Shown in pieces: positions 14,126-31,573 of a stretch of DNA of 64,000 nucleotides; positions within the stretch are counted from its first letter, which is position 1, and every line of letters starts with the position of its first letter. A program made the translations under genes and the position numbers. The notes beneath the pieces are model-generated. The model saw only the letters and a program-made list of their open reading frames with translations, did no database searches and was not told where the DNA came from. Source of the stretch: an uncultured Methylobacillus sp. (GTDB lineage Bacteria; Pseudomonadota; Gammaproteobacteria; Burkholderiales; Methylophilaceae). The stretch is from contig CAIJXJ010000170.1 of the NCBI GenBank assembly GCA_903824575.1, positions 62,001-126,000 of the forward strand. The letters run 5' to 3'.

Positions 14126-14857
14126 ATGGAAAAAGTACGTCTTTCAAAAGTCATGTCCGAACAGGGTATTTGCTCACGCCGCGAGGCGGACAGCTACATT
14201 GAGCAGGGGCTGGTTCTGGTTGATGGCGTTGCCATCAGCGAACTCGGCACCCGTATCTTCCCCAACCAGACCATCACGCTGGCAAAGGGCGCACAGGTGC
14301 AGCAGCAGGCACGTGTCACCATCCTGTTGCATAAGCCCATGGCCTATGTCTCGGCTCAGGCGGAAGATGGTTACTTGCCGGCGGTGTCCCTGATCAACGC
14401 GGCCTCGCGCTTCTCTGGTGACAAATCACCGCTCCGCTTTTCCCCCAGTCATTTCAAGGGCCTTGCCCCCGCCGGTCGACTGGACATCGATTCCACCGGC
14501 CTGTTGGTAATGACGCAGGATGGCCGCATTGCAAAACTCCTGATCGGCGATGAATCCAAGATCGAAAAGGAATACCTGGTGCGGGTGACGGGCACACTGT
14601 CGGATCGTGGCATGCGCATGCTGAACCACGGCCTGTCGCTGGACGATGTGCCATTGCGACCGGCCAAGGTGAGTTGGGCCAATGAAGACCAGTTGCGCTT
14701 CGTGCTGCGCGAAGGCAAGAAACGCCAGATCCGCCGTATGTGTGAACTGGTCGGACTGGAAGTGGTTGGACTCAAGCGCGTGCGTATCGGACAGATTTCA
14801 CTGTCGGACCTGCCGGTCGGACAGTGGCGCTATCTGGGCGAGAAGGAACGGTTTTAA
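14126..14857 (+). CDS. rluF: RsuA/RluF-family rRNA pseudouridine synthase
   Basis: The 243-residue enzyme has an N-terminal S4 RNA-binding domain (about residues 5-50, with the [18 protein letters not shown] core) and a pseudouridine synthase domain. The catalytic Asp lies in [11 protein letters not shown] (about residue 119). The [12 protein letters not shown] motif typical of the RsuA/RluB/E/F group follows. RluF modifies U2604 of 23S rRNA in E. coli. I favour RluF over RsuA because of the short insert and the C-terminal SDLPVGQWR, but the exact target is not certain. Confidence 0.85.
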
Positions 14858-14952
14858 TCTGCGGCCACCCGCCGCCGCGAGTGCAACTTTCGAACCATCC
14901 GCCTTTCGTGGCAGAATATGTCCAATCCCCAAAAACTGACGGCGGTCACGTC

Positions 14953-15363
14953 ATGCAAAATCATAAAGAAGCCGTTCGGAAATTCTACGACGCCATCTGG
15001 AACAATGACGAGAAATCCATCATTCCCGAACTGTTGTCAGAGGACTTCAGCTTTCGCGGCTCTCTGGGACCCAAGCACCGGGGCCATAAGGGCTTCATCC
15101 AGTACATGGATTTCATCCGCAGCGCACTCGGCAATTATCGCTGCGAAATCATTGACATGGTGGCGGAGGACAACAAGCTGTACGCACGCATGTTGTATTC
15201 AGGCGTGCACAAGGGCGAATTGTTCGGCTACGCACCGACCCACGGCAAGATCAAATGGGATGGTGTCGCCGTGTTCACCTTCGACCAGGGGAAAATAGCC
15301 GAACTTTGGGTCCTGGGTGATGTGCACGACGTCATCCTGCAACTGACACGCTATATGGGCTGA
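14953..15363 (+). CDS. SnoaL-like/NTF2-fold polyketide cyclase family protein
   Basis: I start at ATG 14953 (MQNHKEAVRKFYDAIW), giving 136 residues. The pattern is that of SnoaL-like ester cyclases: a first helix with KFYDAIWN, an acidic pocket region, and the GKIAELWVLGD strand near the C-terminus. These small cone-shaped proteins bind or isomerise varied small molecules, and their substrates cannot be predicted from sequence. It is a lone gene convergent with ygiQ. Confidence 0.75.
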   Translation: MQNHKEAVRKFYDAIWNNDEKSIIPELLSEDFSFRGSLGPKHRGHKGFIQYMDFIRSALGNYRCEIIDMVAEDNKLYARMLYSGVHKGELFGYAPTHGKIKWDGVAVFTFDQGKIAELWVLGDVHDVILQLTRYMG

Positions 15364-17640: not shown

Positions 17641-18813
17641 CTAGAACAATTCAGGCTCCTGTGCGCCATCACTACCTCGCAGGGCGGCCTGAATCTTGTC
17701 GAACGTTTCGTCCGATTTTGAACTGGTTAACTCCAACAGGCTGATTATTTTTTCAACGGACGCATACATGGCTTTGCTGATGCTCACTTCCTGATCGCGA
17801 CTGGTACCCAGCCAGGCATAGGTTTTCTCGACCTGATCCACCAATTCCTGCAACAACAACCGGGTATCTATCTGCGTGCTTTGCCCCAGCTTGCGTAAAA
17901 ACTCCGTTTCGAAAAAAGCCGTACTCATGGCCACCTGAAGCTGTTCTGCCATAGCACTGGAGGCCTGCCGTATAGCGACGTTGCCACACAGGGTGTCCGT
18001 CATTTCGGCAAGAATGGTGATATTGTCCCTAATACGACCCGTCTTTTCCGACTCGTCCAGAGGCATGTTACTCACGATCACCGAGACATGATCATAATTC
18101 ACCACCAGTTTCTGCTTGAACTGGAATATCCGCCCCATGCTGGACGCCTGCTCCAGAACGGAAGCTTCAATTGCGCTGGCTGTCCCATGGGACGCCAGAA
18201 TCGTGACCTCATCATTGGCACGGATCAGCAGACTGCTCTCCAAGCCAAAATCACTGATTGCTGCCAGCAATTGCCGCCCCAATTCCGTTGACGTATTACA
18301 GGCCAGGCTGGCCTGCATGAATTTTTGCAATACACCGCTCTCACCCACGGCCGACAGAAAATTCATCGCCATGCTATGAAGCGAATCTTTTTCGCTTTTC
18401 AACTGATGCTGTGAGTTTTTTCGCATGATGGCGAGCGACACCTTGCGCAGCAATATTTCTTTAGCCACTGGCTTGGTGATGATGTCATCGCCACCTGAGT
18501 CGAAAGCAATCAAATGCTCGTCCAATGACTCATTAGAGGTGGCAAAGATGATCGGGATATCGGTAAACTCGCGTAATCTACGGCAAGTTTCATAGCCGTC
18601 CATGTCAGGCATGACGACATCCAGCAACACGAGATCTGGCAAGCGCTCACGGCAAATTTCCAACGCCTGCAAGCCGGAACTGGCTGTCTCAACATCGAAC
18701 CGGGTTGAAAGTGCGCTGCGATGTATGGTGCGCGTCACGCTATCATCATCCACAACCAGCACCCTTCCTGTCACATCAGGCACACTATCCATGTTTGAAA
18801 AATCAACTTCCAC
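17641..18813 (-). CDS. Response regulator with unrecognised C-terminal region
   Basis: A GTG at 18813 with AGGAGG six bases upstream is the best start (390 residues); ATG codons at 18852 and 18792 are alternatives. The N-terminal receiver domain is complete: acidic DDD pocket, phosphoacceptor Asp in LVLLDVVMPDMDG, Thr/Ser in FATSNE, and Lys in ITKPV. The following 250 residues contain no DNA-binding, GGDEF, EAL or kinase motifs that I can see. Parts look GAF-like followed by helical segments. It may act by protein-protein contact. No histidine kinase gene is adjacent. Confidence 0.75.
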   Translation of the reverse strand: MEVDFSNMDSVPDVTGRVLVVDDDSVTRTIHRSALSTRFDVETASSGLQALEICRERLPDLVLLDVVMPDMDGYETCRRLREFTDIPIIFATSNESLDEHLIAFDSGGDDIITKPVAKEILLRKVSLAIMRKNSQHQLKSEKDSLHSMAMNFLSAVGESGVLQKFMQASLACNTSTELGRQLLAAISDFGLESSLLIRANDEVTILASHGTASAIEASVLEQASSMGRIFQFKQKLVVNYDHVSVIVSNMPLDESEKTGRIRDNITILAEMTDTLCGNVAIRQASSAMAEQLQVAMSTAFFETEFLRKLGQSTQIDTRLLLQELVDQVEKTYAWLGTSRDQEVSISKAMYASVEKIISLLELTSSKSDETFDKIQAALRGSDGAQEPELF

Positions 18814-18972
18814 TTCCTGCCTCCTGCAATTTATATCCAATTCAGTAACCAATGGCTACTCCAGTTGTGCCAGGACGGCCAACTGGAACGATCCATTCAC
18901 GTTTCTAATCAGTCAGTAACATACTCCCAACCATGCAAACCTGCCAGATCATCACCAGATCATCAACCACGT

Positions 18973-20214
18973 TCAGGCAGGCAGATTGTATTTTGACTCA
19001 ACGCTGTCGGGCACAACCACCTCCTCCAGCACAGAACAGATGCGTTCGAAATCCTGATTCCGCAACCACGGGCTGTTCGTGATGATGAACATGCGAGCCG
19101 CAAAATCACGCGCATTCGGTACCTCCGCAGTCTGAAACAAGGCCGACAAATAGGGGTAGTCCGGCAAGGCATGGATAAACAGCCGTCCGACGCCAAGACC
19201 CGCCTGCCACAAGCTTGCGAGCACATGATCTCTGGCCGCTTGCGATGGCATCAACATCATGAAGAAGGGCCAGGTGCCGGTGCCGCCCGGCGCATCACGC
19301 ATCAGGGTGACGCCGGGTATTGCGGCCAGTCGAATTTTTCGCGCCTCTGCCTGCCGAGCGGTCTGCTCCAGAAAATCAGGCAGGCGTTGTAGCGCCCGCG
19401 CACCTATAGCCTTGCGCCAGGCACCCACCCGGTGCAAAGGAATATTCGCACTACAATCGTCGCCGACCGCCTCGATCAACTGGCCTTTTTTCAGTCTTCG
19501 TCGTAAAGACATGCCAAAGGCCAGGCCCATCCCGGAGGGACGATATAAGCCCAGATAGCCGGCCAACTCCAGCATACGGCGCAGTTCCCATCGCGTGCTG
19601 AAGGGAGCAATTCCAGCGCTCGTCGCGCGCAACTGTCGGCGCAGCTCATCCTGGCCTGCCACCAGAACGCCACCGCCGAAGATGGTCAACCCCTTGCCAA
19701 CGCCGAGGCTGTAGAAGCCGATGTCGCCGAAGCCACCCACCGGGCGACCCTGCCACGTCGCACCCAGGGATTGCGCCGCATCCTCGATGACATAAGCCCC
19801 TCGGCCCCTGACAATGCCTGCCGTGACCTCGAGTTCGGCCACGCGGCCGCCAAGATGGGTGATGAGGACAGCCAGGGTATCCGCATTACAGACCGCAGCA
19901 AGGGAGTCTGGGCAGAGATCGAAGTGATCAGGTCGGGTATCGCATAGCACCGGCGTCAAGCCGCAATAGGCGACTGCAAGCGCCACCAGAGGACAGGTAT
20001 AGGCTGGAATGACGACGGAACGGCGAGGGCTAAGCTGCTTGAGTGTGGTCAGCGCAACGACGAGGGCCGCCGTGCCGGAACACTCGATCTGCACCTCAGG
20101 TTGATGCAGATAGGCTGCAAGCCCAAGTTCCAACGACCCGCCGCGCGGCAAAAAATCCCGCCATGACATCGGCAACCCGGCCGTGGGAGGCACCTCCCAC
20201 AGGCGTTCAGCCAT
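18973..20214 (-). CDS. DegT/DnrJ/EryC1/StrS-type PLP-dependent aminotransferase
   Basis: The 413-residue protein has the fold-type I pattern of this family: a CSGTAA phosphate-binding turn near residue 45, the VIPAYTCP strand near residue 68, Asp145 in VIEDAAQSLGA that contacts the PLP ring nitrogen, and Lys174 in GVGKGLTIFGGG as the Schiff-base lysine. Such enzymes usually transfer an amino group to a keto-sugar or related substrate. It is the last gene of the ACP/ketosynthase operon and overlaps the upstream EamA gene by 8 bases. That context suggests an amino group is installed on an acyl-derived or sugar headgroup; the substrate is unknown. Confidence 0.85.
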   Translation of the reverse strand: MAERLWEVPPTAGLPMSWRDFLPRGGSLELGLAAYLHQPEVQIECSGTAALVVALTTLKQLSPRRSVVIPAYTCPLVALAVAYCGLTPVLCDTRPDHFDLCPDSLAAVCNADTLAVLITHLGGRVAELEVTAGIVRGRGAYVIEDAAQSLGATWQGRPVGGFGDIGFYSLGVGKGLTIFGGGVLVAGQDELRRQLRATSAGIAPFSTRWELRRMLELAGYLGLYRPSGMGLAFGMSLRRRLKKGQLIEAVGDDCSANIPLHRVGAWRKAIGARALQRLPDFLEQTARQAEARKIRLAAIPGVTLMRDAPGGTGTWPFFMMLMPSQAARDHVLASLWQAGLGVGRLFIHALPDYPYLSALFQTAEVPNARDFAARMFIITNSPWLRNQDFERICSVLEEVVVPDSVESKYNLPA

Positions 20215-20593
20215 GCGAAGCCCTGGCCTCGCTCAGGCTCAAAAACACGATACCAACGATGATGCAGAGCGCACCTGCTACCTGCATCAGGCTGAAGTGC
20301 TCTCCGAAATAAACGACAGAGATGAACAACACGGCGACCACGCCAAGATGTGAGGCGGCGAAAGCCGGTCCTATGGGTGCATGCTTGAGCAGCGTCATCC
20401 AAGCGATGAACGCACCGAAATAACCTGCCACTGCCCCGTACACCCAGGGATTATGCGCCACCGCCAGCACCCAATCGAGGTTCATGACAAATGCACCAGC
20501 GTGGGATGAAGCCAGTTTGATCGAAACCTGAGTCAGCGTATCGAACAGCATCAGCACACCAAAACCAATCGCGTAAAAATAGAGTTTCTTCAC
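20207..20593 (-). CDS. Four-helix EamA/SMR-type membrane transporter, second of pair
   Basis: The 128-residue protein has four predicted transmembrane helices and ends with a short charged tail. It is half the size of a full EamA/DMT transporter, like EmrE or ArnE/ArnF. The start overlaps the stop of the first pair member (ATGA). Such pairs commonly work as heterodimers. ArnE/ArnF flip undecaprenyl-linked aminoarabinose, which is the closest functional analogy I can offer. Confidence 0.8.
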   Translation of the reverse strand: MKKLYFYAIGFGVLMLFDTLTQVSIKLASSHAGAFVMNLDWVLAVAHNPWVYGAVAGYFGAFIAWMTLLKHAPIGPAFAASHLGVVAVLFISVVYFGEHFSLMQVAGALCIIVGIVFLSLSEARASHG

Positions 20594-20946
20594 GCAAAGC
20601 CTCCCACCAACCCCACCCCCAGGGTGATGAGCAACATCCCAAGGATGCGCATGGGGTCAAGTAACTCATGGAAAACCAGCCGACCGGCGACCATGATGGA
20701 GACCATGTTGATGGCCCCAAGCAACACACCGGTCGAAAGCGGAAGCATGGACAGCAACACCAGCCACAAGGCGAATTCCAGACAAAAACATAAGATGCCG
20801 ATCCAGATCGGCATCGAAGACAACATCATCTTCCAGCGATGCCACTCATTTTCATGCTCGATGATGGCGGCATGCTTGAAAGCCATGTGGCCAGTCGTGT
20901 CCACGATGATATTCAGCACCCAGACAAGAATGGCGAGATTGGACAA
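20590..20946 (-). CDS. Four-helix EamA/SMR-type membrane transporter, first of pair
   Basis: The 118-residue protein has four predicted helices with a charged loop (HENEWHRWK) after the first. A GHMAFKHAA segment in helix 1 resembles the conserved region of small multidrug resistance-like proteins, but the classic EmrE Glu14 is not clearly present. It follows the ketosynthase by 16 bases and overlaps its partner by 4 bases. A lipid or metabolite flippase role is inferred from context. Confidence 0.8.
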   Translation of the reverse strand: MSNLAILVWVLNIIVDTTGHMAFKHAAIIEHENEWHRWKMMLSSMPIWIGILCFCLEFALWLVLLSMLPLSTGVLLGAINMVSIMVAGRLVFHELLDPMRILGMLLITLGVGLVGGFA

Positions 20947-20962
20947 GAAAATCGCCTGGGCG

Positions 20963-22189
20963 TCAGACCTTGCGTGCGATCAATACGCCGCTGGTACCGC
21001 CAAAGGCAAACGAATTGGACATCACGGTATGTACCCTGACATCACGACGACCGAAATTCGGGATGTAATCGAGGTCACATTCCGGGTCTGGCACGGCCAG
21101 ATGCGCGGTCGGTGGCAGGGACTGCTGCTCGATCGCCATCATGCAGGCGACGAACTCAACAGCACCGGAGGCGCCCATCAGATGCCCTGTCATGGACTTG
21201 GTCGAACTGACCGGAACGCCAGTGCCGCACACTTGTCTGATGGCGGCGGACTCGGTAACATCATTCAACTTGGTACCGGTACCGTGGGCATTGATGTAAT
21301 CGAGCTGATCCGGCGTGATGCCGGCTTCAGTCAAGGCACGGGTGATGGCGCGGGCCTGACCATCAACGGATGGCTGGGTGATATGGGTGGAGTCTGAACT
21401 GCTGCCATAGCCGATGATCTCAGCGTAAATATGCGCGCCCCGCGCCACGGCGCGGTCCATGTCTTCCAGCACCACCATGCCGGCGCCCTCGCCTAACACC
21501 AGTCCGCTGCGGTTGGCAGAAAACGGCTTGCAGGAGGCGGACGGATCGTTCTTGTCTTCATCCGCCAGGGTACGCAACGCTTCCCAAGCCTTGATGGTAC
21601 CGAAAGTCAGCAACGCTTCACTGCCCCCGGCCAGCATGACATCGGTATAACCATGACGAATCTGTCGAACGGCCTCGCCGATGGCAACGGCCGATGAGGC
21701 GCAAGCGGTGCAATAGGTGAGCCCTGGCCCGGTAATGCCGAGTTCCAGGGCAACCTGAGAACCGGCGGCGTTATTCATCGCCATCAACACGGTAAACGGC
21801 TTCAGCCGGCTGGCCTGGTCACGATACAGGCGCACATAACCTTCCTCAATCGAGGCAGCGCCGCCCATGCCGGTGCCGAGGTGAACGCCGATACGCTCGC
21901 GGTCCTCGGTTTCCAGATCGATGCCGGCATCACGAATCGCCTGCTGACTCGCCACCACGGCAAATTGCGTAACGCGATCCATGGTCGCGGCCTTGTTCTT
22001 GACGAAATGCGCGAGCGGATCGAAGTCTTCGACCCAGCCGGCGAGTTGCGCATCAACCTTGTCGATGAATTCGACCTGCATGCGGCGAATGCCGGAACGG
22101 CCAGCCATCAGTGAAGAGAAAAAAGTCTCGGCATCATTGCCCACCGGCGAGATGACGCCAAGTCCGGTTACTACGACACGTCTCTGCAT
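20963..22189 (-). CDS. FabF-like beta-ketoacyl-ACP synthase
   Basis: The 408-residue enzyme has the complete KAS II catalytic set: nucleophile Cys163 (in TACASS), His302 (in AHGTGTKLND), His336 (in GHLMGA) and Lys331. It therefore should perform decarboxylative condensation on an ACP-bound acyl chain. Its start overlaps the stop of a dedicated ACP gene (TAATG), and no ketoreductase, dehydratase or malonyl transferase gene is nearby. It is thus not the housekeeping fabF locus, which normally follows fabD-fabG-acpP. The likely role is one chain extension step in a special lipid or ketone pathway. Confidence 0.92.
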   Translation of the reverse strand: MQRRVVVTGLGVISPVGNDAETFFSSLMAGRSGIRRMQVEFIDKVDAQLAGWVEDFDPLAHFVKNKAATMDRVTQFAVVASQQAIRDAGIDLETEDRERIGVHLGTGMGGAASIEEGYVRLYRDQASRLKPFTVLMAMNNAAGSQVALELGITGPGLTYCTACASSAVAIGEAVRQIRHGYTDVMLAGGSEALLTFGTIKAWEALRTLADEDKNDPSASCKPFSANRSGLVLGEGAGMVVLEDMDRAVARGAHIYAEIIGYGSSSDSTHITQPSVDGQARAITRALTEAGITPDQLDYINAHGTGTKLNDVTESAAIRQVCGTGVPVSSTKSMTGHLMGASGAVEFVACMMAIEQQSLPPTAHLAVPDPECDLDYIPNFGRRDVRVHTVMSNSFAFGGTSGVLIARKV

Positions 22190-22428
22190 TATTTGGCTTG
22201 TTCCGCGCGCAGACGATCAATCAGGTTCACCACATCCTGCACCGTCTTGATGTCCACTTCATCGTTGGGCACCTTGATGTCGAATTTTTCTTCCGCTTCA
22301 AAGATGATGTCGAAAGTATCCAGGGAATCGATTTCAAGCGACTCAAAAGTCGCATCCAGCGTGATCTCGCTGGCAGCTTTGTCGAATTTTTTGGCGATAA
22401 TATCGCGCAGGGTTTCAAAAGTATCCAA
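22189..22428 (-). CDS. Acyl carrier protein
   Basis: The 79-residue acidic protein has the phosphopantetheine attachment site Ser35 in the EIDSLDTFD motif and the four-helix ACP pattern. The ending (LIDRLRAEQAK) is usual. It is placed between the hydrolase and the ketosynthase gene and probably serves the pathway of this operon rather than general fatty acid synthesis. Confidence 0.95.
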   Translation of the reverse strand: MDTFETLRDIIAKKFDKAASEITLDATFESLEIDSLDTFDIIFEAEEKFDIKVPNDEVDIKTVQDVVNLIDRLRAEQAK

Positions 22429-22437
22429 AACAGTCTC

Positions 22438-23298
22438 CTATGCCGGCAACACGTGATGTGCCGAACATTTCTTGAAAAATTCCGCCATGCGGCGAGCGAC
22501 ATCGTCGCGCCGCTTGTCGAGGGTCAGCACATGATACGTATCATCGACGAAAAATGTTTCAATTTTTCGCGAGGCTATCGTTTTCTCCACAAAATGCGCA
22601 TTCTTGAGGCTGGCGGTGTCGTCTTCCGTCGAATGCACGATCAGGGTAGGCACGTGCACATGCGGCAGGGCCCGCTTCGCCACCTTGATCAAACGCGTAC
22701 TCTCATAGATGGTGACGCCGGAGGTACGGAAGATGCCAACAGTTTCCGTCGCCAGGGCGTCACGATTCTGCAACACGGCATGCACCATGGCACGGGTGCG
22801 TTCGCACTTGATGCCGTAGGGCGGGGTCTCGTCCCAACTGAGGAAAAACCGCAACGGACTATGCAGCACGATGGGCAGGATGATTTTCCGTTTCCAGCGC
22901 GGCATGTTCCAGCCATCGTAGAAGAAGGTGGTGGAGAGCAAGCCGATGCCATCGACGCGCGAACCCTTTTCGCGCGCCAGCAACAAGGCAATCAACGCCC
23001 CCATCGACAGGCCCGCCACGTACACCCGGCCATGCTTGGCCTTGAGAGCCTCGAAGGAATCACTGATGCCGCCATACCAGTCCTGCCATCTGGACTGGCG
23101 CAAATCCAGGGCTGAGCCACAATGCCCGGCCAGGGCCGGACACATGACGGAGAAACCCTGCTTGAGCAAACGCTTGGCGATCGGCTTCATCTCGGCAGGT
23201 GTGCCGGTCAGGCCATGGATCAGCAGTACGGCATCTGCTCCGGCTTCATCGTAATAACCGGTGTTGCCGAGACAGTCCTCAATCGATCGCGTCATCAA
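22438..23298 (-). CDS. Alpha/beta hydrolase, carboxylesterase/monoacylglycerol lipase-like
   Basis: The 286-residue protein shows the oxyanion strand VLLIHGLTGTP, the nucleophile elbow GLSMGA with Ser98, an acid in HSTEDD and a catalytic His in DDTYHVLTLDKRRDDV. This resembles YvaK-type carboxylesterases and monoacylglycerol lipases. It could be a thioesterase that releases the product from the ACP, or an ester hydrolase acting on a lipid. The gene lies 6 bases after the aminotransferase gene and 9 bases before the ACP gene, which supports shared translation. Confidence 0.88.
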   Translation of the reverse strand: MMTRSIEDCLGNTGYYDEAGADAVLLIHGLTGTPAEMKPIAKRLLKQGFSVMCPALAGHCGSALDLRQSRWQDWYGGISDSFEALKAKHGRVYVAGLSMGALIALLLAREKGSRVDGIGLLSTTFFYDGWNMPRWKRKIILPIVLHSPLRFFLSWDETPPYGIKCERTRAMVHAVLQNRDALATETVGIFRTSGVTIYESTRLIKVAKRALPHVHVPTLIVHSTEDDTASLKNAHFVEKTIASRKIETFFVDDTYHVLTLDKRRDDVARRMAEFFKKCSAHHVLPA

Positions 23299-23304
23299 TG
23301 CAGC

Positions 23305-24678
23305 TTACTCGGCGCCGTTGCGACGCAGTAACATCTCAAACAGATGGATGCCTAGGTCGATTTCTTCCTCTGAAATTAACAGCGAAGGGGCCAGCGTAAT
23401 AACGTTCTTCTCATAGCCACCAATATCCAGCACCAGGCCGTATTTCTTGTCACCAACCAGAAGGTCGCCCTTCAGGCCTTCGTTGAACATGCGATCTGCC
23501 AGCGACCGACTGGCGGTGAAGCCATCCGGCTGACACAATTCGATGCGCAGTGCCAACCCCAGGCCACTGACGTCCCCGATCACCTTCCAGCGCGACTTCA
23601 ATTCATGCAAGCGCTTCAGGAAATAGGCGCCGCGCGCCAGCACTTCCGGCTCGAAGCTTGGCTCCTGCGTCATCTTCAAGACTTCCAGCGCAACGGAGGT
23701 GCCGAGCGGATTGGAGGCGAAGGTCGAATGGGTGGATCCCGGCGGGAATTTTTCCGGAGAGATCAGTTCCTCGCGTGCCCAGATGCCAGACAAGGGGTTC
23801 AGGCCATTGGTGATGGCCTTGCCGAATACAAAGATGTCCGGAACGATGCCGAAGTTTTCCCACGACCACAGTTTTCCCGTGCGGTACACGCCCATCTGGA
23901 TCTCGTCCGCCACCAGCAGCACCTTACGCTTCTTCAGGGACTCCTGCAGCTTGGCCATGTAGCCCTCGGGCGGGATAATGTAACCGCCAGTGCCCTGCAT
24001 CGGCTCGATGTAGAAGGCGCCGAACTCACATTCTTTCGCCTTCTCGTCCCACACCGACTGGTATTCGGTGTCGAACAGCTTTTCAAATTCCTTGTGGCAA
24101 TAGGTGTTGCAAGTTTCCACCTTCATGTCGTACGGGCAGCGGAAGCAATAAGGATAAGGCACGAAATGCGCACGATCGGCAAAATTTCCGAAGCGGCGGC
24201 GATAGCGGAAGCTGGACGTGATGGCGGATGCACCCAGGGTGCGACCGTGGTAGCCGCCCATGAAGGCGAACTGGTGAGTCTTGCCGGTATGATTGCGCAC
24301 GACTTTAAGCGAATCTTCCACCGCCTGTGCGCCGCCAACGTTGAAATGCACGCGGCCCTTGACGCCATGCTTTTCTTCCATGTATTTGCAAATGATCTCG
24401 GCCAGGTCGACCTTTTCCTTGTGCAGGTACTGGCTGGCCAGTTGCGGTAGCGTATCGATCTGCTTGTGCAACACGTCGCTAATGCGCTTGTTCTTGTAGC
24501 CGAAGTTGACTGCCGAGTACCACATCTGCCAGTCGAGATACGGCGTATTGTGTTCGTCAAACAGGAAGCTGCCTTCGCAGCCCTCGAACACCTTGGGGGG
24601 GTCCGCGTAATTAACGGTATCGCCATGCGAGCAATACTTGTTGTTCTTGTCGAGAATCTCGATGATCTTCTTATCCAT
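23305..24678 (-). CDS. Class III (ornithine/4-aminobutyrate-type) PLP-dependent aminotransferase
   Basis: The 457-residue protein has the class III fold pattern: GGYHGRTLGA near residue 141, the PLP-contacting Asp258 in VADEIQMG and the Schiff-base Lys287 in VFGKAITNGL. A four-cysteine segment (Cys178, 181, 190 and 194, in CFRC and CNTYC) resembles a PYCYRCPFG-type element found in several members of the subfamily. Members transfer the omega amino group of diamines or amino acids. In this operon it could supply an amino aldehyde or amine building block. The substrate is not predictable here. Confidence 0.88.
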   Translation of the reverse strand: MDKKIIEILDKNNKYCSHGDTVNYADPPKVFEGCEGSFLFDEHNTPYLDWQMWYSAVNFGYKNKRISDVLHKQIDTLPQLASQYLHKEKVDLAEIICKYMEEKHGVKGRVHFNVGGAQAVEDSLKVVRNHTGKTHQFAFMGGYHGRTLGASAITSSFRYRRRFGNFADRAHFVPYPYCFRCPYDMKVETCNTYCHKEFEKLFDTEYQSVWDEKAKECEFGAFYIEPMQGTGGYIIPPEGYMAKLQESLKKRKVLLVADEIQMGVYRTGKLWSWENFGIVPDIFVFGKAITNGLNPLSGIWAREELISPEKFPPGSTHSTFASNPLGTSVALEVLKMTQEPSFEPEVLARGAYFLKRLHELKSRWKVIGDVSGLGLALRIELCQPDGFTASRSLADRMFNEGLKGDLLVGDKKYGLVLDIGGYEKNVITLAPSLLISEEEIDLGIHLFEMLLRRNGAE

Positions 24679-24738
24679 GTGTAAACACTCTCAAATAACG
24701 GAATTTTAAGGATGGGGCACCGTGGCCAACCAAACACC

Positions 24739-24776
24739 GTTATTCCGGATAAGCACTAAGCGATTTCCGGAATAAC
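24739..24776 (-). promoter_or_regulatory. Perfect 11-base inverted repeat between the HAD and aminotransferase genes
   Basis: GTTATTCCGGA (24739-24749) and TCCGGAATAAC (24766-24776) are exact complements with a 16-base spacer, inside a 124-base gap. No U-tract follows on the minus strand, so it is not a simple terminator. It may be an operator, a processing hairpin or an attenuator that sets the ratio of the phosphatase to the downstream genes. Confidence 0.6.
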
Positions 24777-24802
24777 AAATTTCATCAGATTTGCTGGTTT
24801 CT

Positions 24803-25471
24803 TCAGGCAGACTGCGCAACGCGACGCTGTGGCGCTTCTTGTGGCCATGACTTGACGCGGGTCAGCACGTCGGCGAAGGTCTGAAATTTGATGTGAGCGA
24901 TGTCGTTTTCTTCGCAATACTTGATCAACGAGCCCTTGGCGAACACGATGTCGGCCTCTTTCGCCAGGCACGCGTCCGACTTGCCGTCACCGATCAGGAT
25001 CACCGGCTTGTTGCCGCCGGACAGATCGCGCGCCACTGCACACTTGCAAACGCCGTTACCGGCTTTGCAGGTCGGGCTCTTGTGCGGCCAGGAAATATCG
25101 ATGCCATTGGGCACAAAATGCAGCTTGTTGGCATACACCGGCAATTCCGGCAGTGCGGCATTCTTCATGGCGACCTTGATGGCATGGTCCAGACCGTCAC
25201 TGACGATGGCAACCTTGGAAAACTTGCTGACATGCTGGTAGAACGGCAGGAAAGTAGCGTCGAGCTGAATGCTGCGGAAAAACTTTTCCAGCGTCACGTG
25301 ATCGGATTTAACCATGCGCAATTGCTTCTGCATGCACTGTACGGCCGTGATCTGGCCATCCAGCCACTCCTGCTCCACGGCCTCCCATTCCGGTCCGGCA
25401 AAACGCTCCAGCATCGCATCCACGGTATCCCTGACGGACAATGTGCCATCGAAATCAACGACAAACAGCAT
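24803..25471 (-). CDS. HAD-IB family phosphatase (MtnX/SerB-like)
   Basis: The 222-residue protein starts with the HAD motif I, VVDFDGTLS (nucleophile Asp6, acid Asp8). Motif II is SDG, and motifs III/IV are in LIGDGKSDACLAKEADIVFA. The middle region carries CKAGNGVCKCA, a Cys-rich cap loop seen in MtnX-like members. It should dephosphorylate a small phosphate ester such as a phosphoserine-like or phosphorylated amine. It is first in the minus-strand operon and diverges from the ABC exporter genes. Confidence 0.85.
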   Translation of the reverse strand: MLFVVDFDGTLSVRDTVDAMLERFAGPEWEAVEQEWLDGQITAVQCMQKQLRMVKSDHVTLEKFFRSIQLDATFLPFYQHVSKFSKVAIVSDGLDHAIKVAMKNAALPELPVYANKLHFVPNGIDISWPHKSPTCKAGNGVCKCAVARDLSGGNKPVILIGDGKSDACLAKEADIVFAKGSLIKYCEENDIAHIKFQTFADVLTRVKSWPQEAPQRRVAQSA

Positions 25472-25558
25472 GCTTAACCCCCACCATTGGCTTTAAAGTA
25501 ACATTGAAGATAACACCGAAGACTTACAAATCACTTACAATGACTGTTATTCGAATAT

Positions 25559-25603: not shown

Positions 25604-26737
25604 ATGAATGTTTCCCTGGCAAGATCCAGCCTCATCCACGAAGGTCGCCGTTACCTTGCGGCCGTACTGGCAGTCAGTTTCGCCGGACTGCTTCTGATCG
25701 TGCAGATGGCTTTGCTGCTGGGTCTGTTCGGCAGCGTGTCACTGGTCATAGAGCAGTCCAGCGCGGCCCTCTGGATCGGCTATCGCAACACCCAAAGCGT
25801 TGACCTGGGGCGCGACCTACCCCCCGGCAGCGACTTGCAAGCCTGGCAGCATCCGGGAGTGGCAAGCGTTGAGCGCTTGCATCTGGGCTTCGGCGACTGG
25901 CGGCGGGACGATGGCGTCGCCATCTCCGCCACCATTAACGCCATCGACACCCGACCCGGCGCGCTGGCCTTTGCCCGCCTGCTAACCCCTCAGCAACGCA
26001 AACTACTTGACGAACCGGACGCCATCCTGATCGACAGTGCGGATCAGGAAAAACTCGGCGCCAGCCTCGGCAGTCAGGCCGAAATAAACGGCAAGCGCGT
26101 GCGCGTGGCGGGTCTGGTGGACGGCATCCGTGCCATCGGTGGCGTCAATGTGCTGACCTCATTCAATACTGCACGTGCCATCGACCCCGGCCTCATCTCG
26201 GGAGATGAAACCACTTATTACCTGGTGGCGCTGACCCCCGGTAGCGATGCCACCCAGGTCGCGCACGAGCTCAATGACAGGCATCCATACAAGCGTTACA
26301 GCGTCTGGCGTGCCAGGGATTTTTCGGTGCAATCACAACTCTACTGGCTGTTCGAGTCTGGTGCCGGCACCGGAGCAGGCGTCGCGACCTTGCTGGGCCT
26401 GATCGTTGGCATCGTCATCACCAGCCAGACCCTGGCGGCTTCCATCCTGGCATCAGTCAAGGAATTCGCCGCGCTACGTGCACTCGGCGTATCGCAATGG
26501 GCCTTGCGTCAGATCGTTCTGGAGCAGGCCTTCTGGATCGGCCTGGCAGGACTCATCATCACCGCAGCTCTGACGGTCGCCACCATCTGGTTGGGAATGG
26601 CGGTCGGCATCGCCATGCTATTCCCCTGGTGGCTACTCGCGGGCTCGGCCTTCGTCATCCTGGCCATTGCCCTCGGATCCGGCTGGTATGCCCTCGGCAC
26701 CTTATACAAGGCCGATCCGGCCACCTTGCTCCGATAA
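25604..26737 (+). CDS. ABC transporter permease, FtsX/DevC family
   Basis: The 377-residue protein has one N-terminal transmembrane helix (about residues 17-40), a large periplasmic region and three C-terminal helices, the usual FtsX/MacB layout. The final segment (GTLYKADPATLLR) resembles DevC proteins. DevBCA exporters move lipids or other hydrophobic molecules through a TolC-type channel. It overlaps the ATPase gene by one base (TAATG). Confidence 0.88.
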   Translation: MNVSLARSSLIHEGRRYLAAVLAVSFAGLLLIVQMALLLGLFGSVSLVIEQSSAALWIGYRNTQSVDLGRDLPPGSDLQAWQHPGVASVERLHLGFGDWRRDDGVAISATINAIDTRPGALAFARLLTPQQRKLLDEPDAILIDSADQEKLGASLGSQAEINGKRVRVAGLVDGIRAIGGVNVLTSFNTARAIDPGLISGDETTYYLVALTPGSDATQVAHELNDRHPYKRYSVWRARDFSVQSQLYWLFESGAGTGAGVATLLGLIVGIVITSQTLAASILASVKEFAALRALGVSQWALRQIVLEQAFWIGLAGLIITAALTVATIWLGMAVGIAMLFPWWLLAGSAFVILAIALGSGWYALGTLYKADPATLLR

Positions 26738-27480
26738 TGCCGAATCGCCAGCCCACACTCGTCAGCCAGAACATTTCCAAAGCCTATAGTTCGGGCCATA
26801 TCACCCATCAGGTGATCAAGGACAGTTCGCTGAAGATCTATCCTGCCGAACTAACTCTGGTGGTAGGTCCCTCGGGCTCGGGCAAGAGCACCATGCTGGC
26901 CATGCTATCAGGCTTGCTTCGGCCGGATGCAGGGCAGGTGCATGCACTCGACACTGACTTATGGACGCTGGATGACCAGTCCATAGACCTGTTCCGGCTG
27001 CAACATTGCGGCTTCATCTTTCAGGGTTTCAACCTGTTCGGCGCGCTGACCGCACTGGAAAACGTGATATTACCGTTGCAGTACCTGCATCAGCACGGCA
27101 ACACGGCGAGGCAACGCGCGAGGGACGCGCTGGCTGAAGTGGGCTTGGCCGAACGCATGCACCTGCGCCCGATGCAACTCTCGGGTGGAGAAAAACAGCG
27201 CGTCGCCATTGCCCGGGCGCTGGTCAAGAACCCGCGCCTGATGTTTGCGGATGAACCCACCTCGGCCCTCGATGGCGCCAACGGCCAGATCGTGATCGAC
27301 CTGTTGAAACGCATCGCGCGGGAGCATAACGCAACCGTACTGGGTGTCACACATGACCCACGCCTGTTCAGTCATGCCGACCGGGTGATCACGCTGGAAG
27401 ACGGCATCGTGGTCAGCGACAAACACCGCAGCACCTTCCATGCGCCAATCGGCGATTACGTAGAGCACCCTCATGACTAA
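26737..27480 (+). CDS. ABC transporter ATPase, DevA/LolD-like
   Basis: From the ATG at 26737 the protein has 247 residues, the normal size; the frame upstream of this is a shadow of the permease gene. It has Walker A GPSGSGKST, a Q-loop (FIFQGFNL), the signature LSGGEKQRVAIARAL, Walker B LMFADEPTSALDG and the H-loop GVTHDPR. It would drive the FtsX-like permease. The 8-base overlap with the next gene supports a single operon. Confidence 0.93.
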   Translation: MPNRQPTLVSQNISKAYSSGHITHQVIKDSSLKIYPAELTLVVGPSGSGKSTMLAMLSGLLRPDAGQVHALDTDLWTLDDQSIDLFRLQHCGFIFQGFNLFGALTALENVILPLQYLHQHGNTARQRARDALAEVGLAERMHLRPMQLSGGEKQRVAIARALVKNPRLMFADEPTSALDGANGQIVIDLLKRIAREHNATVLGVTHDPRLFSHADRVITLEDGIVVSDKHRSTFHAPIGDYVEHPHD

Positions 27481-28387
27481 AAAAACAGCCCTGCCCCTCA
27501 ATCGTTACGCATTGCCATTCATCCTGCTGACGGCTCTATCCCTCTGGCAATTTTTGCCTGACACACCGATAGCCGAGGCCGCGCCGCGCGCCGCCATCGC
27601 CGCATCGCCGTACGTCGCCACTGCCAAGGGTCGCATCGACATCAAGGGCGGCGTTCTGCGCCTGGCCGCGCGACATGAAGGCATGGTACAAAAGGTACTG
27701 GTGGAAGAGGGCGACACGGTCAAAGCCGGGCAGGTACTAGCCATGCTAGATGACCAGCAGGCACGCGCCGGCGTCGATCTGGCACAAGCCGAATTAGAAC
27801 AGGCCAGACGCGCCCTCCCCGCACTCGAGGCCAGGCACGGCATAGCGCAGCGGGAAGAATCACGCCTCATCCCGCTAGCGGCTGACAATACTGTGGCCCG
27901 GCAGGAACTAGACCAGGCTGGCGACCAGATCAAGCTGCTGCAGGCCGAAATCGCCGCCACCAACGCCACCATCGACACCGCAACCCAACGCGTGAAAGTC
28001 GCCGAACTGGAAGTCGAGCAGTTTGCCATTCGCGCGCCGCTCGATGGCCAGATCGTTCGGCTTCAGGCGCGCCCAGGGGATGTGGTCGGCACCCAGAACG
28101 CGCTGTTTCTGCTCGCCCCGCACGCGCCACGGGTGGTGCTGGCTGAACTGGAAGAACGTTTCGTCCCTGAGGTCAAACTGGGACAAACTGCCGAAGTCAT
28201 CCTGGAAGCCGATGAAACGCACAAATTTCCGGCGCGCGTATTACGCATCGGTCGCATGGTCGGCGCACGCACTCCCAGCGATGACCCGCACGAGCGCCAA
28301 GACGACCATGTCGTTGAGTGTCTGCTTGCCGTCGATGCGCCGCAATTACTGATCGGTCAGCGCGTGATCGTGCGGATCTTCAAATGA
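27473..28387 (+). CDS. Membrane fusion protein, HlyD/DevB family
   Basis: The 304-residue protein has an N-terminal membrane anchor, a biotinyl-lipoyl-like half (GMVQKVLVEEGDTVKAGQ), a coiled-coil hairpin of about residues 100-185, the second lipoyl half (IRAPLDGQIVRL) and a beta-barrel domain. It would bridge the ABC permease to an outer membrane factor through the periplasm. It is coupled by 8- and 4-base overlaps to its neighbours. Confidence 0.9.
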   Translation: MTKKTALPLNRYALPFILLTALSLWQFLPDTPIAEAAPRAAIAASPYVATAKGRIDIKGGVLRLAARHEGMVQKVLVEEGDTVKAGQVLAMLDDQQARAGVDLAQAELEQARRALPALEARHGIAQREESRLIPLAADNTVARQELDQAGDQIKLLQAEIAATNATIDTATQRVKVAELEVEQFAIRAPLDGQIVRLQARPGDVVGTQNALFLLAPHAPRVVLAELEERFVPEVKLGQTAEVILEADETHKFPARVLRIGRMVGARTPSDDPHERQDDHVVECLLAVDAPQLLIGQRVIVRIFK

Positions 28388-29505
28388 TGATGCGGCCGCT
28401 CTCATGGCTGCCGCTGCTCGCCCTCTTGGCCGGATGCGCCACGCAGGACCCGCGGGAATCATCCGGCACAGACCCCATCCCCTTGGCTCCCGACCAGGTA
28501 ACCCTGCCAACCGCCTGGCGGCACGAACCCGCTACCGAATCGGTAGTGGCCACGGCATGGTGGAAGTCGCTCAATGACCCGGTGCTTAATGACTTGATCG
28601 CACAGGCGCAGTCAAATAACCCGGATCTCAAGATAACCAGGGCGCGCCTGAACGAAATCAAAAACATTGCCGCCGAGGCTGACTCTGATGAAAAAGAGAC
28701 TGCTGCAGGCCTGCTGCTTGCAGCCGAAAATGATGCCCATGTGATACAACTTGGCGTGACGCATACCGTCGTCACCACCTATCTGGAGGCCCAACTAGCC
28801 GACAAGAGGAAAGAAATCCTGCAGCAACGCATGCAACTGGCCCACGACCTGACGGCCCGCCTGCATCGAAAGCTGGAGGCTGGACTCATCAATTCACGCA
28901 GCTTGCGTGAGAGCGAACAAACAGAAATCGAAACGCGCACGGCCACCGAAAAAAACCATCATGACAGGCGGCAGGCAGTCGGCCGACTCGCGCTCCTGAC
29001 CGGATTGGCACCCATCGAATTCAAGCTGACGCCCGGCACTGATCCATTGTCAGCCAACCTCGAGCTTCGTCCTGATCTCCCAAGCCGCGTTATCGAGCGT
29101 CGCCCTGACGTTCAAGCCGCGTGGCAGCGCCTGCTGGTCGCCACCATGAGCAAGCCGGATGGCGACTTGCCACTCGCAGCCAGACTGGATCTGGCAGAAG
29201 CCAGCATCGACAACCGCGACGCCCTCTATCGAAAATCCGTACTGGCAGCACTGCAAGAAGTCGAGGCCGCGCTCTCAGGCTGGCGCTCATCCAGAGCCGA
29301 GGCAGGGACCAGCGCAGAATTTCTGGAAATCCAGAGCGCCAATGTGCATGACTTGGAACGTGAACTGACGGCAGGACGCATCAGCCAGATCGAATTGCTA
29401 AAGGCGAAACTGGCAGAGAATCTTGCACAGGAAAATGCACTGCTGGCGCAATACGCCCTGCGCGGCGCATTTGCAGCCACACAACTGGCGCTGGCGAGGA
29501 ACTAA
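28384..29505 (+). CDS. NodT/TolC-like outer membrane factor lipoprotein lacking both beta-barrel hairpins
   Basis: The 373-residue protein starts at the ATG at 28384 (ATGA overlap) and has a signal peptide with lipobox LAGC (lipid on Cys18). It keeps the N-terminal DPVLNDLIAQAQSNNPDLK helix and the ERRPDVQAAWQRL repeat of NodT-type factors. Compared with the full-length homologue at 61794-63215 (473 residues), about 50 residues are missing in each repeat, near residues 98-108 and 251-268. These are the segments that form the outer membrane strands. The coiled-coil parts remain and the frame is intact. It may be a periplasmic alpha-barrel adaptor rather than a pore. Confidence 0.8.
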   Translation: MMMRPLSWLPLLALLAGCATQDPRESSGTDPIPLAPDQVTLPTAWRHEPATESVVATAWWKSLNDPVLNDLIAQAQSNNPDLKITRARLNEIKNIAAEADSDEKETAAGLLLAAENDAHVIQLGVTHTVVTTYLEAQLADKRKEILQQRMQLAHDLTARLHRKLEAGLINSRSLRESEQTEIETRTATEKNHHDRRQAVGRLALLTGLAPIEFKLTPGTDPLSANLELRPDLPSRVIERRPDVQAAWQRLLVATMSKPDGDLPLAARLDLAEASIDNRDALYRKSVLAALQEVEAALSGWRSSRAEAGTSAEFLEIQSANVHDLERELTAGRISQIELLKAKLAENLAQENALLAQYALRGAFAATQLALARN

Positions 29506-30173
29506 TGCGCGTATTGCAGGTAGAAGACGATGCCGTGCTGGGGGACGCTCTCCTGATCGCCCTGGGCGGCGCTGGCTATGCCGTGGACTGGGCACACAGC
29601 GGGACAGATGCGGACATTGCGTTACAAGACCAGATGTATGACGCCGTCGTGCTCGACCTCAACCTGCCGGGAATGGATGGCTTCGAAGTCCTGCATCGCT
29701 TGCGGGGCAGGCGTTCCGATACGCCCGTTCTGATCCTGACAGCACGCGACGCGCTGGATGACCGCGTGCGGGGCCTCGATCTGGGTGCCGATGATTACAT
29801 GCTCAAGCCTTTCGACATGCCGGAATTTCTCGCCCGAGTACGCGCCTTGCTGCGACGTGGCGGTGCTGCAATCTCCAACGAAATCGAGTTTGGCCAATTA
29901 CGCTATGACATGACGACCCGTAGCGTCACCGCCGATGGCTTGGCCCTACACCTGTCGGCGCGCGAACTTGGCGTGCTGGAGGCCCTGTTGATTCGGGCTG
30001 GCAAGGCCGTCACCAAGGAAGCGCTGATGGAAAAATTGTGCAACTGGGATGAAGATCTGGGCAGCAATGCGATTGAGGTTTATGTACACCGCCTGCGCAA
30101 GAAGCTCGAACCCTTCGGTATCGAAATCCAGACCATCAGGGGCCTTGGCTACATGATGGGCCGGCCAGTTTGA
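29505..30173 (+). CDS. OmpR/PhoB-family response regulator
   Basis: The 222-residue protein has a receiver domain with acidic EDD, phosphoacceptor Asp in VVLDLNLPGMDG, Thr in LTARD and Lys in LKPFD. A winged-helix DNA-binding domain with the YVHRLRKKLEP recognition helix follows. It resembles QseB/PmrA-type regulators. It starts one base within the preceding stop region and overlaps the kinase gene, so it is part of the exporter operon and probably controls it. Confidence 0.93.
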   Translation: MRVLQVEDDAVLGDALLIALGGAGYAVDWAHSGTDADIALQDQMYDAVVLDLNLPGMDGFEVLHRLRGRRSDTPVLILTARDALDDRVRGLDLGADDYMLKPFDMPEFLARVRALLRRGGAAISNEIEFGQLRYDMTTRSVTADGLALHLSARELGVLEALLIRAGKAVTKEALMEKLCNWDEDLGSNAIEVYVHRLRKKLEPFGIEIQTIRGLGYMMGRPV

Positions 30174-31573
30174 AAACACGCCGCCACTCGCTACGACGGA
30201 CCCTGCTGACCTGGCAACTGGCGCCACTGCTCATCATGCTGATCGTCGGCACGGCAGTAGTTTATCGTCTGGCGCTAGGCTTTGCCGAACGCGAATACGA
30301 TCACTCGCTGTATGAGTCAGCATTCGACATCATGCAACTGTTGAAGAAGTCTGCCGAGGATAGCGGACAAATCCATCTGCCCAACTCGGCCAGTGATCTG
30401 ATCCTGGCCGATTCAGAGGACGAAGATTTTTTCAGCATCACCAACGCCCAAGGCGAAGCCATCATCGGCAACACCCGCTTGCAACCGCCACTAGTCAAAG
30501 CAAAGTTGCCAAACGAAACCATCTATTACAACAGCGTAGTCGATGAAAAACCGGTACGGGTAGTCTCGGTCCCCATTACGCTCCTGTTGCTTGGTAAGCC
30601 ACAGGTGCTGCACGTACAGGTAGGCGAGACCCTCAACAAGCGCCAGCACCTGGCCGACCAGATACTGTCCAGTTTTGTCGTGCCACAAATCATCCTGATC
30701 ACCCTGTCCGCCATGCTGGTGTTGTTCGGCATCCGACGCGGCCTGGCGCCGTTGGAGAAGGTGCGCGACGCCATTGCCCACCGCTCCTATCTCGACATGC
30801 GACCGGCGCCGACGGCAGAGGTGCCCATCGAGGCCTTGCCCCTGATCGAGGAAATCAACGGCTTGCTGAAACGCCTGAATACCGTGTTTGAGGCGCAAAA
30901 GCGTTTTACCGCCGATGCCGCGCACCAGTTGCGCACCCCGCTCGCAGGGCTGGCCGCTCAGACCGATCTCGCGCTGGGACAAAACAACCCGGCTCCGACC
31001 ACCCACGCCTTGCAGCAAATCAAGACCGTTTCCAGAAGTCTCAACCATCTCATCCATCAACTCCTGCTGCTGTCCCGTAGCGAAGCCGCCGGTGCACACG
31101 CGCTGTACGACACGGTAAATCTGCGTGAACTGGTGCAGGAAATCGTACTGGAAAATGTGCCGCGCGCCGCACAAAAAAATATCGATCTGGGCTTTGAAGG
31201 CACTGACGAAGCGATCACGCTGCGCGGCAATCGCCAGTTGCTGCAGGAAATGCTATTGAACCTCGTCGACAATGCCATCCGCTACACCCCGATCGACGGT
31301 AAAATTACGGTTCGTCTGGATGATGGCAGCAAAGCCTCATTAACCATTGAAGACAATGGCCCTGGCATCCCGCTGGAAGAACGCGAGCAGGTATTCGAGC
31401 GTTTCCACCGGGTGGATAGAGCTAGCAGCATAGAGGGGACAGGCCTCGGCCTCGCCATCGTGCAGCAAATTGCCTTGGCACATGGCGCAACCATAACACT
31501 GACGGAAGGGCAAGGCGGGCAAGGCTGCCTGTTCCGGGTAGAGTTTCCGGAACAATACAAAACCTTGGATTAG
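30170..31573 (+). CDS. Sensor histidine kinase, QseC/PmrB-like
   Basis: The gene starts at TTG (30170), overlapping the regulator's stop. The 467-residue protein has two transmembrane helices (about residues 13-33 and 165-185) around a periplasmic domain of the TctE_N type, a short HAMP-like linker, the H-box FTADAAHQLRTPLAG with the phosphorylated His, and N, G1 and G2 boxes (NLVDNAIRYTP, IEDNGPGIP, GTGLGLAIV). It is the partner of the adjacent OmpR-type regulator. The signal is unknown. Confidence 0.92.
   Translation: MKTRRHSLRRTLLTWQLAPLLIMLIVGTAVVYRLALGFAEREYDHSLYESAFDIMQLLKKSAEDSGQIHLPNSASDLILADSEDEDFFSITNAQGEAIIGNTRLQPPLVKAKLPNETIYYNSVVDEKPVRVVSVPITLLLLGKPQVLHVQVGETLNKRQHLADQILSSFVVPQIILITLSAMLVLFGIRRGLAPLEKVRDAIAHRSYLDMRPAPTAEVPIEALPLIEEINGLLKRLNTVFEAQKRFTADAAHQLRTPLAGLAAQTDLALGQNNPAPTTHALQQIKTVSRSLNHLIHQLLLLSRSEAAGAHALYDTVNLRELVQEIVLENVPRAAQKNIDLGFEGTDEAITLRGNRQLLQEMLLNLVDNAIRYTPIDGKITVRLDDGSKASLTIEDNGPGIPLEEREQVFERFHRVDRASSIEGTGLGLAIVQQIALAHGATITLTEGQGGQGCLFRVEFPEQYKTLD

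Follow-up and report, generated by a model that had tools for sequence, protein, structure and literature searches.

The eight-gene operon at positions 18973 to 25471 of the window (a 64,000-nucleotide stretch of an uncultured Methylobacillus sp., C170:62001-126000, from a 3.66 Mb assembly of 315 contigs that is 99.3 % complete) represents a local joining of two modules that belong to the same widespread system. The first module comprises an HAD-family phosphatase (HAD), a class III pyridoxal phosphate (PLP) aminotransferase (AT3), an alpha/beta hydrolase (ABH), an acyl carrier protein (ACP) and a ketosynthase (KS), arranged HAD-AT3-ABH-ACP-KS, whilst the second contains two EamA-family half-transporters and a DegT-type aminotransferase (EamA-EamA-DegT). 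The constant pair of the system is the HAD phosphatase and AT3. This description draws directly on gene content, conservation, co-occurrence and a promoter architecture that is conserved in close relatives. The system is best read as an inducible, modular pathway whose product would be an envelope lipid with an amine, probably a cationic one; such a pathway would work like arn or mprF and be a member of neither, and we give this interpretation about an even chance of being correct.

Gene content and layout of the operon

According to the open reading frame (ORF) list of the window, all eight genes lie on the minus strand and are tightly packed, with distances from HAD onward of 124, 6 and 9 bases, an overlap of 1 base, a gap of 16 bases, and overlaps of 4 and 8 bases. 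The first gene encodes an MtnX-like HAD-IB phosphatase (24803..25471; PF06888/PF12710), and is followed by the core gene, AT3 (23305..24678; PF00202), a monoacylglycerol-lipase-like ABH (22438..23298; PF12146), an ACP whose DSL motif is conserved in alignments (22189..22428; PF00550), and a FabF-like KS (20963..22189), an accessory gene assigned by Pfam, NCBIfam and alignment. The second module begins with an ArnE-like four-helix half-transporter, EamA-1 (20590..20946; PF00892), continues with the ArnF/SMR-like half-transporter EamA-2 (20207..20593; PF00892/PF00893), and ends with a DegT/DnrJ/EryC1-type aminotransferase, DegT (18973..20214; PF01041). Each of the eight proteins matches a Pfam family above that family's own cutoff, so that the first-pass annotation, which described eight genes in one orientation with this spacing, is borne out by ORF coordinates and Pfam alike. 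It did, however, overlook a conserved promoter, as well as divergent exporter and two-component genes. Pfam detects no ketoreductase, dehydratase, acyltransferase, malonyl transferase or nonribosomal peptide synthetase domain amongst the eight operon proteins. The earlier statement that no acyl transferase is present thus holds inside the operon, but not beyond it, where DegT is often succeeded by a FemAB-like tandem-GNAT transferase, one of which this genome encodes at C85:2949-4106. No description of the gene set was found in the literature, in a search with thin coverage of subscription journals and no strain-name queries, and no characterised pathway of the same gene order turned up, in agreement with the original view that the set matches no known locus.

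Conservation of gene order and composition of related loci

Conserved synteny, proposed at the outset as a check, is evident. The order and strand of HAD, AT3, ABH, ACP and KS are kept in 15 of 15 relatives, two of which are cut by contig ends and some of which contain inserted genes; such a retained order indicates that the grouping is not due to chance and, together with co-occurrence, upholds the functional linkage first suggested. A window-like EamA-EamA-DegT arrangement is present in four of these 15 relatives, and on the same strand in one; the one-strand order of all eight genes was seen again in genomes G027, G503 and G509. As a small control, the surroundings of the genome's four further class III aminotransferase genes (about 9 kb to either side in three cases, the fourth lying near a contig end) were queried for HAD, ABH, ACP, KS, EamA, DegT, transferase and arginase-like proteins; none was found, and one locus gave a weak (26 %) match to an RND-type query.

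Relatives of AT3 were found in 16 of 61 genomes and in 26 of 398 genomes of a phylum sample, the source genome being included in both. GTDB r220 contigs yielded at least 593 stretches, at least 560 of them encoding an AT3 relative, from which the best 80 were used, and 34 plasmid records with AT3 relatives derive from Rhizobium (16), Agrobacterium (10), Bartonella (5), Sinorhizobium (1), Phyllobacterium (1) and Xanthomonas (1). Neighbours were counted within a set of 101 loci (80 GTDB, 4 plasmid and 17 others), using the 55 that have an AT3 match and at least 7 kb on both flanks. Because many ORFs in the gene-order listing are antisense artefacts of the longest-ORF rule, counts were made by tblastn (E 1e-4, within 9 kb of AT3; DegT at 40 % identity or more), with those for two-component, ABC and HlyD genes taking any match and not implying orthology.

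Near these 55 AT3 genes, HAD occurs 53 times, ABH 46, two-component genes 38, EamA 36 (34 with two or more), the transferase 33, an arginase-fold gene 28, KS and ACP 26 each, ABC genes 19, DegT 17 and HlyD 11, followed by a glycosyltransferase and an AMP ligase (7 each), FtsX (6) and a desaturase (4). The earlier placing of KS and ACP at the heart of the pathway is not supported by this comparison of KS with HAD: a KS present near 26 of 55 AT3 genes is accessory, leaving the ketosynthase-centred view only partly right, and a KS-centred acyl-amine pathway was lowered as a candidate on account of the 29 AT3 genes with no KS match nearby. KS and ACP travel together, both being present in 25 loci and each occurring alone in one. 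Plasmids of Rhizobium, Agrobacterium and Sinorhizobium, as well as several other lineages, carry HAD, AT3, ABH and two EamA genes with no KS or ACP match nearby, and the 509-kb plasmid of Xanthomonas sacchari R1 harbours HAD, AT3, KS, ACP, transferase, arginase-like, DegT, two EamA, ABH, HlyD and ABC genes. Laboratory methylotrophs with the system include Novimethylophilus kurashikiensis La2-4 (L039) and Methylovorus mays VKM B-2221 (L043), the latter with HAD-AT3-ABH-ACP-KS and a weak (26 %) match to the transferase.

A further variant is seen in seven loci, all acidobacterial, where a monogalactosyldiacylglycerol (MGDG)-synthase-like glycosyltransferase and the AMP ligase always occur together (7/7), and never, amongst the 55 loci, with EamA or ABH; this suggests a glycolipid form of the product. 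In L091 (3030-9973), L102 and other Acidobacteria, the cluster reads response regulator, ACP, KS, glycosyltransferase (MGDG-synthase-like), AMP ligase, HAD and AT3. Elsewhere, fatty acid desaturase genes lie within the AT3 clusters of L118, L119, L056 and L064, with a cyclopropane synthase gene also in L118. Starred branches of the AT3 tree require four label changes for Pseudomonadota, and the same number for Acidobacteriota, a pattern that is in keeping with transfer but does not prove it, with metagenome bins amongst the sequences.

Proteins of the first module

Amongst 14 family members, identity to the window proteins is 87-94 % for AT3, 52-85 % for HAD, 52-79 % for ABH, 46-86 % for ACP and 57-84 % for KS, which places AT3 under the tightest constraint of the five. 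Its domain matches PF00202 with 244.2 bits, and its PLP lysine, K287, is invariant in 21 of 21 aligned members, as are T230 and T428. At the positions of these two threonines, five solved relatives carry Glu/Asp in four cases (Gly in one) and Arg in four cases (Thr in one, 3n5m), respectively. In class III enzymes of the glutamate-handling type, such as GABA-AT and OAT, a Glu gate and an Arg that binds the alpha-carboxylate handle glutamate; with Thr at both places instead, AT3 probably handles its amino donor or acceptor differently from glutamate-type enzymes of this class. A PDB profile search with A1, made for the AT3 comparison, returned no entries at E 1e-60 and 40 at 1e-40. Four cysteines (Cys178, Cys181, Cys190 and Cys194, spaced C-x2-C-x8-C-x3-C) are likewise invariant in the 21 aligned members, and form a possible metal or redox site.

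The HAD protein scores 99.5 bits against TIGR01489, the MtnX-like HAD-IB subfamily (cutoff 81.55), and its catalytic residues D6, D8, S91, K143, D162 and D166 are invariant in six of six aligned members. It falls short of MtnX proper, of methionine salvage (TIGR03333, 109.6 bits against an equivalog cutoff of 303.2). The best PDB matches of ABH are thermostable monoacylglycerol lipases. For KS, the claim of a full set of catalytic residues proved correct, with C163, H302, H336 and K331 kept in all six aligned members. The protein falls within the beta-ketoacyl-ACP synthase II subfamily PRK07314 (469.8 bits, cutoff 387), yet below the equivalog for FabF proper, TIGR03150 (469.5 against 493.75 bits); two further KS genes in the genome are 41 and 36 % identical to it (E 1e-20).

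Co-occurrence of the second module

The description of a paired ArnE/F-like half-transporter is supported at the level of best matches, as EamA-1 is closest to ArnE in NCBIfam (27.3 bits, cutoff 92) and EamA-2 to ArnF (28.4 bits, cutoff 99). DegT lies below the cutoff of all seven NCBIfam families that it matches, including ArnB (72.2 against 631 bits), and is never near AT3 without EamA (17 loci with, none without, of 55).

Across the family, module 2 tracks AT3 even when unlinked from it. Of 120 family genomes, 33 contain AT3, 19 EamA-1 (18 with AT3) and 21 DegT (17 with AT3); one-sided Fisher tests of association with AT3, which ignore kinship, give p values of 1.6e-11 for EamA-1, 1.9e-8 for DegT and 2.1e-5 for the transferase. 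The eight genera with EamA-1 all fall within the 13, of 24, that have AT3 (p 0.0017). A unit of EamA-EamA-DegT-transferase is situated off the contig of AT3 in G006, G471, G480, G489, G501 and G507, far from AT3 in G021, and directly after KS in G027, G503 and G509. Only one genome, G462 (L187:173-2533), has EamA-1 with no AT3 found; here DegT is in two pieces and the transferase contains a stop, as if module 2 were decaying, although this genome is 92 % complete and its AT3 may therefore be unassembled.

Promoter, divergent genes and surroundings

Upstream of HAD lies TGTAAGTGATTTGTAAG, followed by ten bases and TATCTT, the whole ending 35 bases before the HAD start. The first element is a GTAAG-N6-GTAAG direct repeat with an 11-bp period (25523..25538, minus strand), predicted as a likely response-regulator site from its conserved position in close relatives, and the second a -10 element (25507..25512, minus strand), identified by conservation of TANNNT. 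Among 29 upstream regions at 85 % AT3 identity or more, that of the window being one of them, 23 carry an exact copy of the repeat and 27 a copy with at most one mismatch (shuffle means of 0.0 and 0.2), and TANNNT occurs 9-11 bases past it in 25 of these 27 promoters (shuffled mean 3.1). An alternative TTAA-N6-8-TTAA repeat before HAD was rejected, being present in three of 96 upstream regions against a shuffle mean of 2.2. A general promoter scan across the operon gave five sites, with 3.9 expected.

Divergent from the operon, on the plus strand, are genes for a DevC-like ABC permease, an ATPase, an HlyD-type adaptor and a TolC-like protein (25604..29505), the probable exporter of the system, and then for a PmrA/TctD/QseB-like response regulator and a CopS/QseC/PmrB-like kinase (29505..31573), its probable regulators, which fall below equivalog cutoffs. 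The response regulator best matches PRK10643 (PmrA), at 227.3 bits against an equivalog cutoff of 330. The same exporter set is found in L040, of the same genus, and some response-regulator or kinase match lies near 38 of the 55 AT3 genes; both groups of divergent genes probably belong to the system. The layout of the GTAAG repeat resembles that of the PhoP box, described in one report as two hexamers five bases apart, forming a response-regulator site that can overlap the -35 region (PMC3335776). The adjacent response regulator may bind the repeat.

Other features of the surroundings are less distinctive. Terminator-like hairpins between 18700 and 25800 of the window number 18, against 6.5 in shuffles, and are mostly within genes. 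A PleD-like response regulator (17641-18852), whose long C-terminal portion matches no Pfam family, adjoins DegT and was not seen as part of the conserved cluster, and a YgiQ-type radical SAM protein (15370-17517) and a SnoaL-like protein (14824-15363) are ordinary neighbours.

An unlinked transferase and its arginase-fold partner

The FemAB-like tandem-GNAT transferase at C85:2949-4106 (L171; PF04339) is orthologous to the gene found directly behind DegT in several relatives, and is a probable ninth member of the system. A first search of the genome with a Bartonella protein gave a single 26 % match; the protein encoded here is 45-67 % identical to the transferases of nine linked loci and about 21-29 % identical to others. 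In the family as a whole, 28 of the 120 genomes carry it, 17 of them with AT3.

A linked homologue from L062 (380 residues, 66 % identical to that of the window genome) was modelled with a predicted local distance difference test (pLDDT) score of 88.8 and a predicted template modelling (pTM) score of 0.87. The model adopts the tandem-GNAT fold of the FemX/MprF aminoacyl-tRNA transferases: it aligns with aminoacyl-tRNA-dependent transferases at Z 20.3-22.5 (Sba18 at Z 22.5, with a root-mean-square deviation (rmsd) of 2.7 over 271 aligned residues; FemX at Z about 21), with MprF/aminoacyl-phosphatidylglycerol synthases at 18.1-19.2, with acyl- and acetyl-CoA GNATs at 17.1 and lower, and with N-myristoyltransferases at about 16. 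A PDB profile search with the transferase gave no sequence match at E 0.1.

The arginase-fold gene is never found without the transferase (28 loci with both, none with the former alone, of 55). Its products keep GSGDxHH, DNHxD and DKD in 21 aligned proteins, at the metal-ligand positions of arginases. No arginase-like gene was detected in the window genome with one Bartonella query, used without a positive control.

Proposed pathway and alternative explanations

In the envelope-lipid pathway, the PmrA-like two-component pair would sense envelope stress and activate the promoter. AT3 would aminate a phosphorylated keto or aldehyde precursor, from which HAD would remove the phosphate to leave an amino-alcohol head or backbone; with HAD almost always near AT3, the simplest role that the two could share involves an amino-phosphate intermediate, and a more specific guess is serinol from dihydroxyacetone phosphate. 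Where present, ACP and KS could determine the form of a dedicated acyl chain, a part that desaturases may play in other loci, and the monoacylglycerol-lipase-like ABH would handle an acylated intermediate. The FemAB/MprF-fold transferase, unlinked here, may place on the amine an aminoacyl or acyl cap, which the arginase-fold enzyme, where present, might trim, whilst DegT would add a second amino group. The ArnE/ArnF-like pair would then act as flippase for the lipid at the inner membrane, and the ABC-HlyD-TolC exporter of some lineages could carry a product further. Lipid-type enzymes in some loci (MGDG-synthase-like glycosyltransferase, AMP ligase, desaturase and cyclopropane synthase) count for a lipid, and the original suggestion, a lipid that bears an amine and is flipped across the inner membrane, remains the best reading. 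A far more specific form of it would make the product a non-glycerol membrane lipid class, in which AT3 and HAD would form an amino-alcohol (serinol, derived from dihydroxyacetone phosphate), with dedicated ACP/KS acylation, a tRNA-dependent MprF-fold cap, trimming of an arginyl cap by the arginase-fold enzyme in some lineages, ArnE/F-like flipping and PmrA-like control, in at least Pseudomonadota and Acidobacteriota; this is unlikely.

Several observations weigh against the envelope-lipid pathway. With regard to sampling, 46 of the 101 loci were dropped from the counts for short flanks or want of an AT3 match, and the 55 counted are related rather than independent, many having been picked as best AT3 matches. 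AT3 was modelled with moderate confidence (pLDDT 77), and the closest structural neighbours of the model are ordinary class III enzymes (best Z 34.8, rmsd 3.0, 411 aligned). The serinol step is a guess from gene pairing and precedent, and in Campylobacter jejuni, which provides that precedent, the phosphatase acts after amide formation (PMC11800397). The transferase is unlinked from the operon in the window genome, of the 28 genomes that carry it, 11 have no AT3 (10 of these in genus g13), and its modelled fold leaves the donor, aminoacyl-tRNA or other, unfixed. An ABC ATPase at least 50 % identical to that of the window is found in only 7 of 103 AT3 loci. As for the promoter, the GTAAG repeat was noticed in an open search for repeats of 10-11-bp period on the same loci in which it was then counted, and it is confined to close relatives: a copy with one mismatch or none is seen in 2 of 12 upstream regions at 70-85 % AT3 identity and in 0 of 55 below 70 %. 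Since 0.28 repeats are expected in the window at one mismatch, a single copy alone is not telling. Exact repeats number three genome-wide, against six for a reversed control pattern; at this chance level no regulon is readable, and the evidence lies in the conserved place of the repeat. ORF lists around the other two sites (C156 and C282), read by eye, showed none of the system's genes. Control of module 2 through the repeat was rejected, as none of 16 EamA-1 upstream regions carries it, 12 of which lie outside an AT3 operon.

A different product is also conceivable, namely an acyl-amine metabolite or signal that leaves the cell through ABC-HlyD-TolC, with the two-component pair acting as receptor or in control of self-protection. 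Exporter genes do adjoin the cluster in the window as well as in L040, X. sacchari and Agrobacterium, clusters with ACP and KS often make small molecules, and this one is patchy and partly plasmid-borne. Against this, the scarcity of close exporter matches (the 7 of 103 loci above) compares with two or more EamA genes in 34 of 55, and the ArnE/F-like halves, the MprF-like fold and the MGDG-like glycosyltransferase all point to a membrane lipid; a secreted product is therefore doubtful, if still a serious candidate. It is appreciably harder to sustain the proposal that KS supplies beta-ketoacyl-ACP for amination by AT3 and that ABH releases the resulting beta-amino fatty acids. A KS without a ketoreductase would leave a beta-keto group, the tight association of KS with ACP is in accord with such a scheme, class III domains that aminate beta-ketoacyl-ACP occur in lipopeptide synthases, and a housekeeping KS could supply substrate where the locus lacks its own. 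The AT3 of the 29 loci with no KS match is nonetheless still about 60 % identical or more, and the nearly constant HAD phosphatase is left with no role, which makes this scheme quite improbable. That the two modules are different pathways, brought together by shared regulation or chance, with only HAD-AT3-ABH forming one pathway, would fit their separation in many genomes and the lack of a GTAAG repeat before module 2, but is very improbable given their strong co-occurrence when unlinked, the decay of module 2 in G462, the sole EamA-1 carrier with no AT3 found, and the fusion of both modules in G027, G503, G509 and the window.

Should the envelope-lipid pathway be correct, an unrecognised, switchable addition of amines to envelope lipids is present in a large number of bacteria (26 of the 398 genomes sampled from the phylum, plus Acidobacteriota and others), with a bearing on cationic-peptide resistance and on life in water, in soil and on plants. 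The core pair, the rules governing its partners and the promoter make the system directly testable in methylotrophs kept in the laboratory.

Comparison with known systems

Type II fatty acid synthesis and aryl polyene loci share with the operon a FabF-like KS and an ACP. Unlike these loci, and unlike type II polyketide synthase loci, the eight genes include no reductase, dehydratase or malonyl transferase partner, and more than half of the AT3 genes counted (29/55) have no KS match nearby, which sets them apart from fatty acid and aryl polyene loci.

A functional parallel, as analogy rather than homology, is offered by C. jejuni, where the aminotransferase Cj1437 and the HAD phosphatase Cj1435 make and dephosphorylate serinol groups (PMC11800397), and thus an aminotransferase and an HAD phosphatase together yield an amino-alcohol group. 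There, however, the pathway serves capsule amidation rather than a lipid, in addition to the later action of its phosphatase. Formation of serinol from dihydroxyacetone phosphate by RtxA is described in a second report (PMC3222319).

With MprF/aminoacyl-phosphatidylglycerol synthases and FemX, the system shares the fold of its transferase (Z 18-22) and, as its likely result, a cationic lipid. In contrast to MprF, the modelled 380-residue protein is a transferase alone, with no MprF-type membrane domain, and no PDB sequence matches it at the threshold given above.

The Arn system differs in that the DegT and EamA proteins of the operon score far below the cutoffs for ArnB, ArnE and ArnF, and no ArnA, ArnC, ArnD or ArnT domain is present amongst the operon proteins. 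The operon instead has HAD, AT3, ABH, ACP and KS, and its repeat is of the GTAAG type, the TTAA type not being enriched. Features in common with Arn are a PmrA-like regulator, an OmpR-type direct-repeat promoter, an ArnE/ArnF-like pair, an aminotransferase of the DegT family and, probably, the placing of an amine on an envelope lipid.

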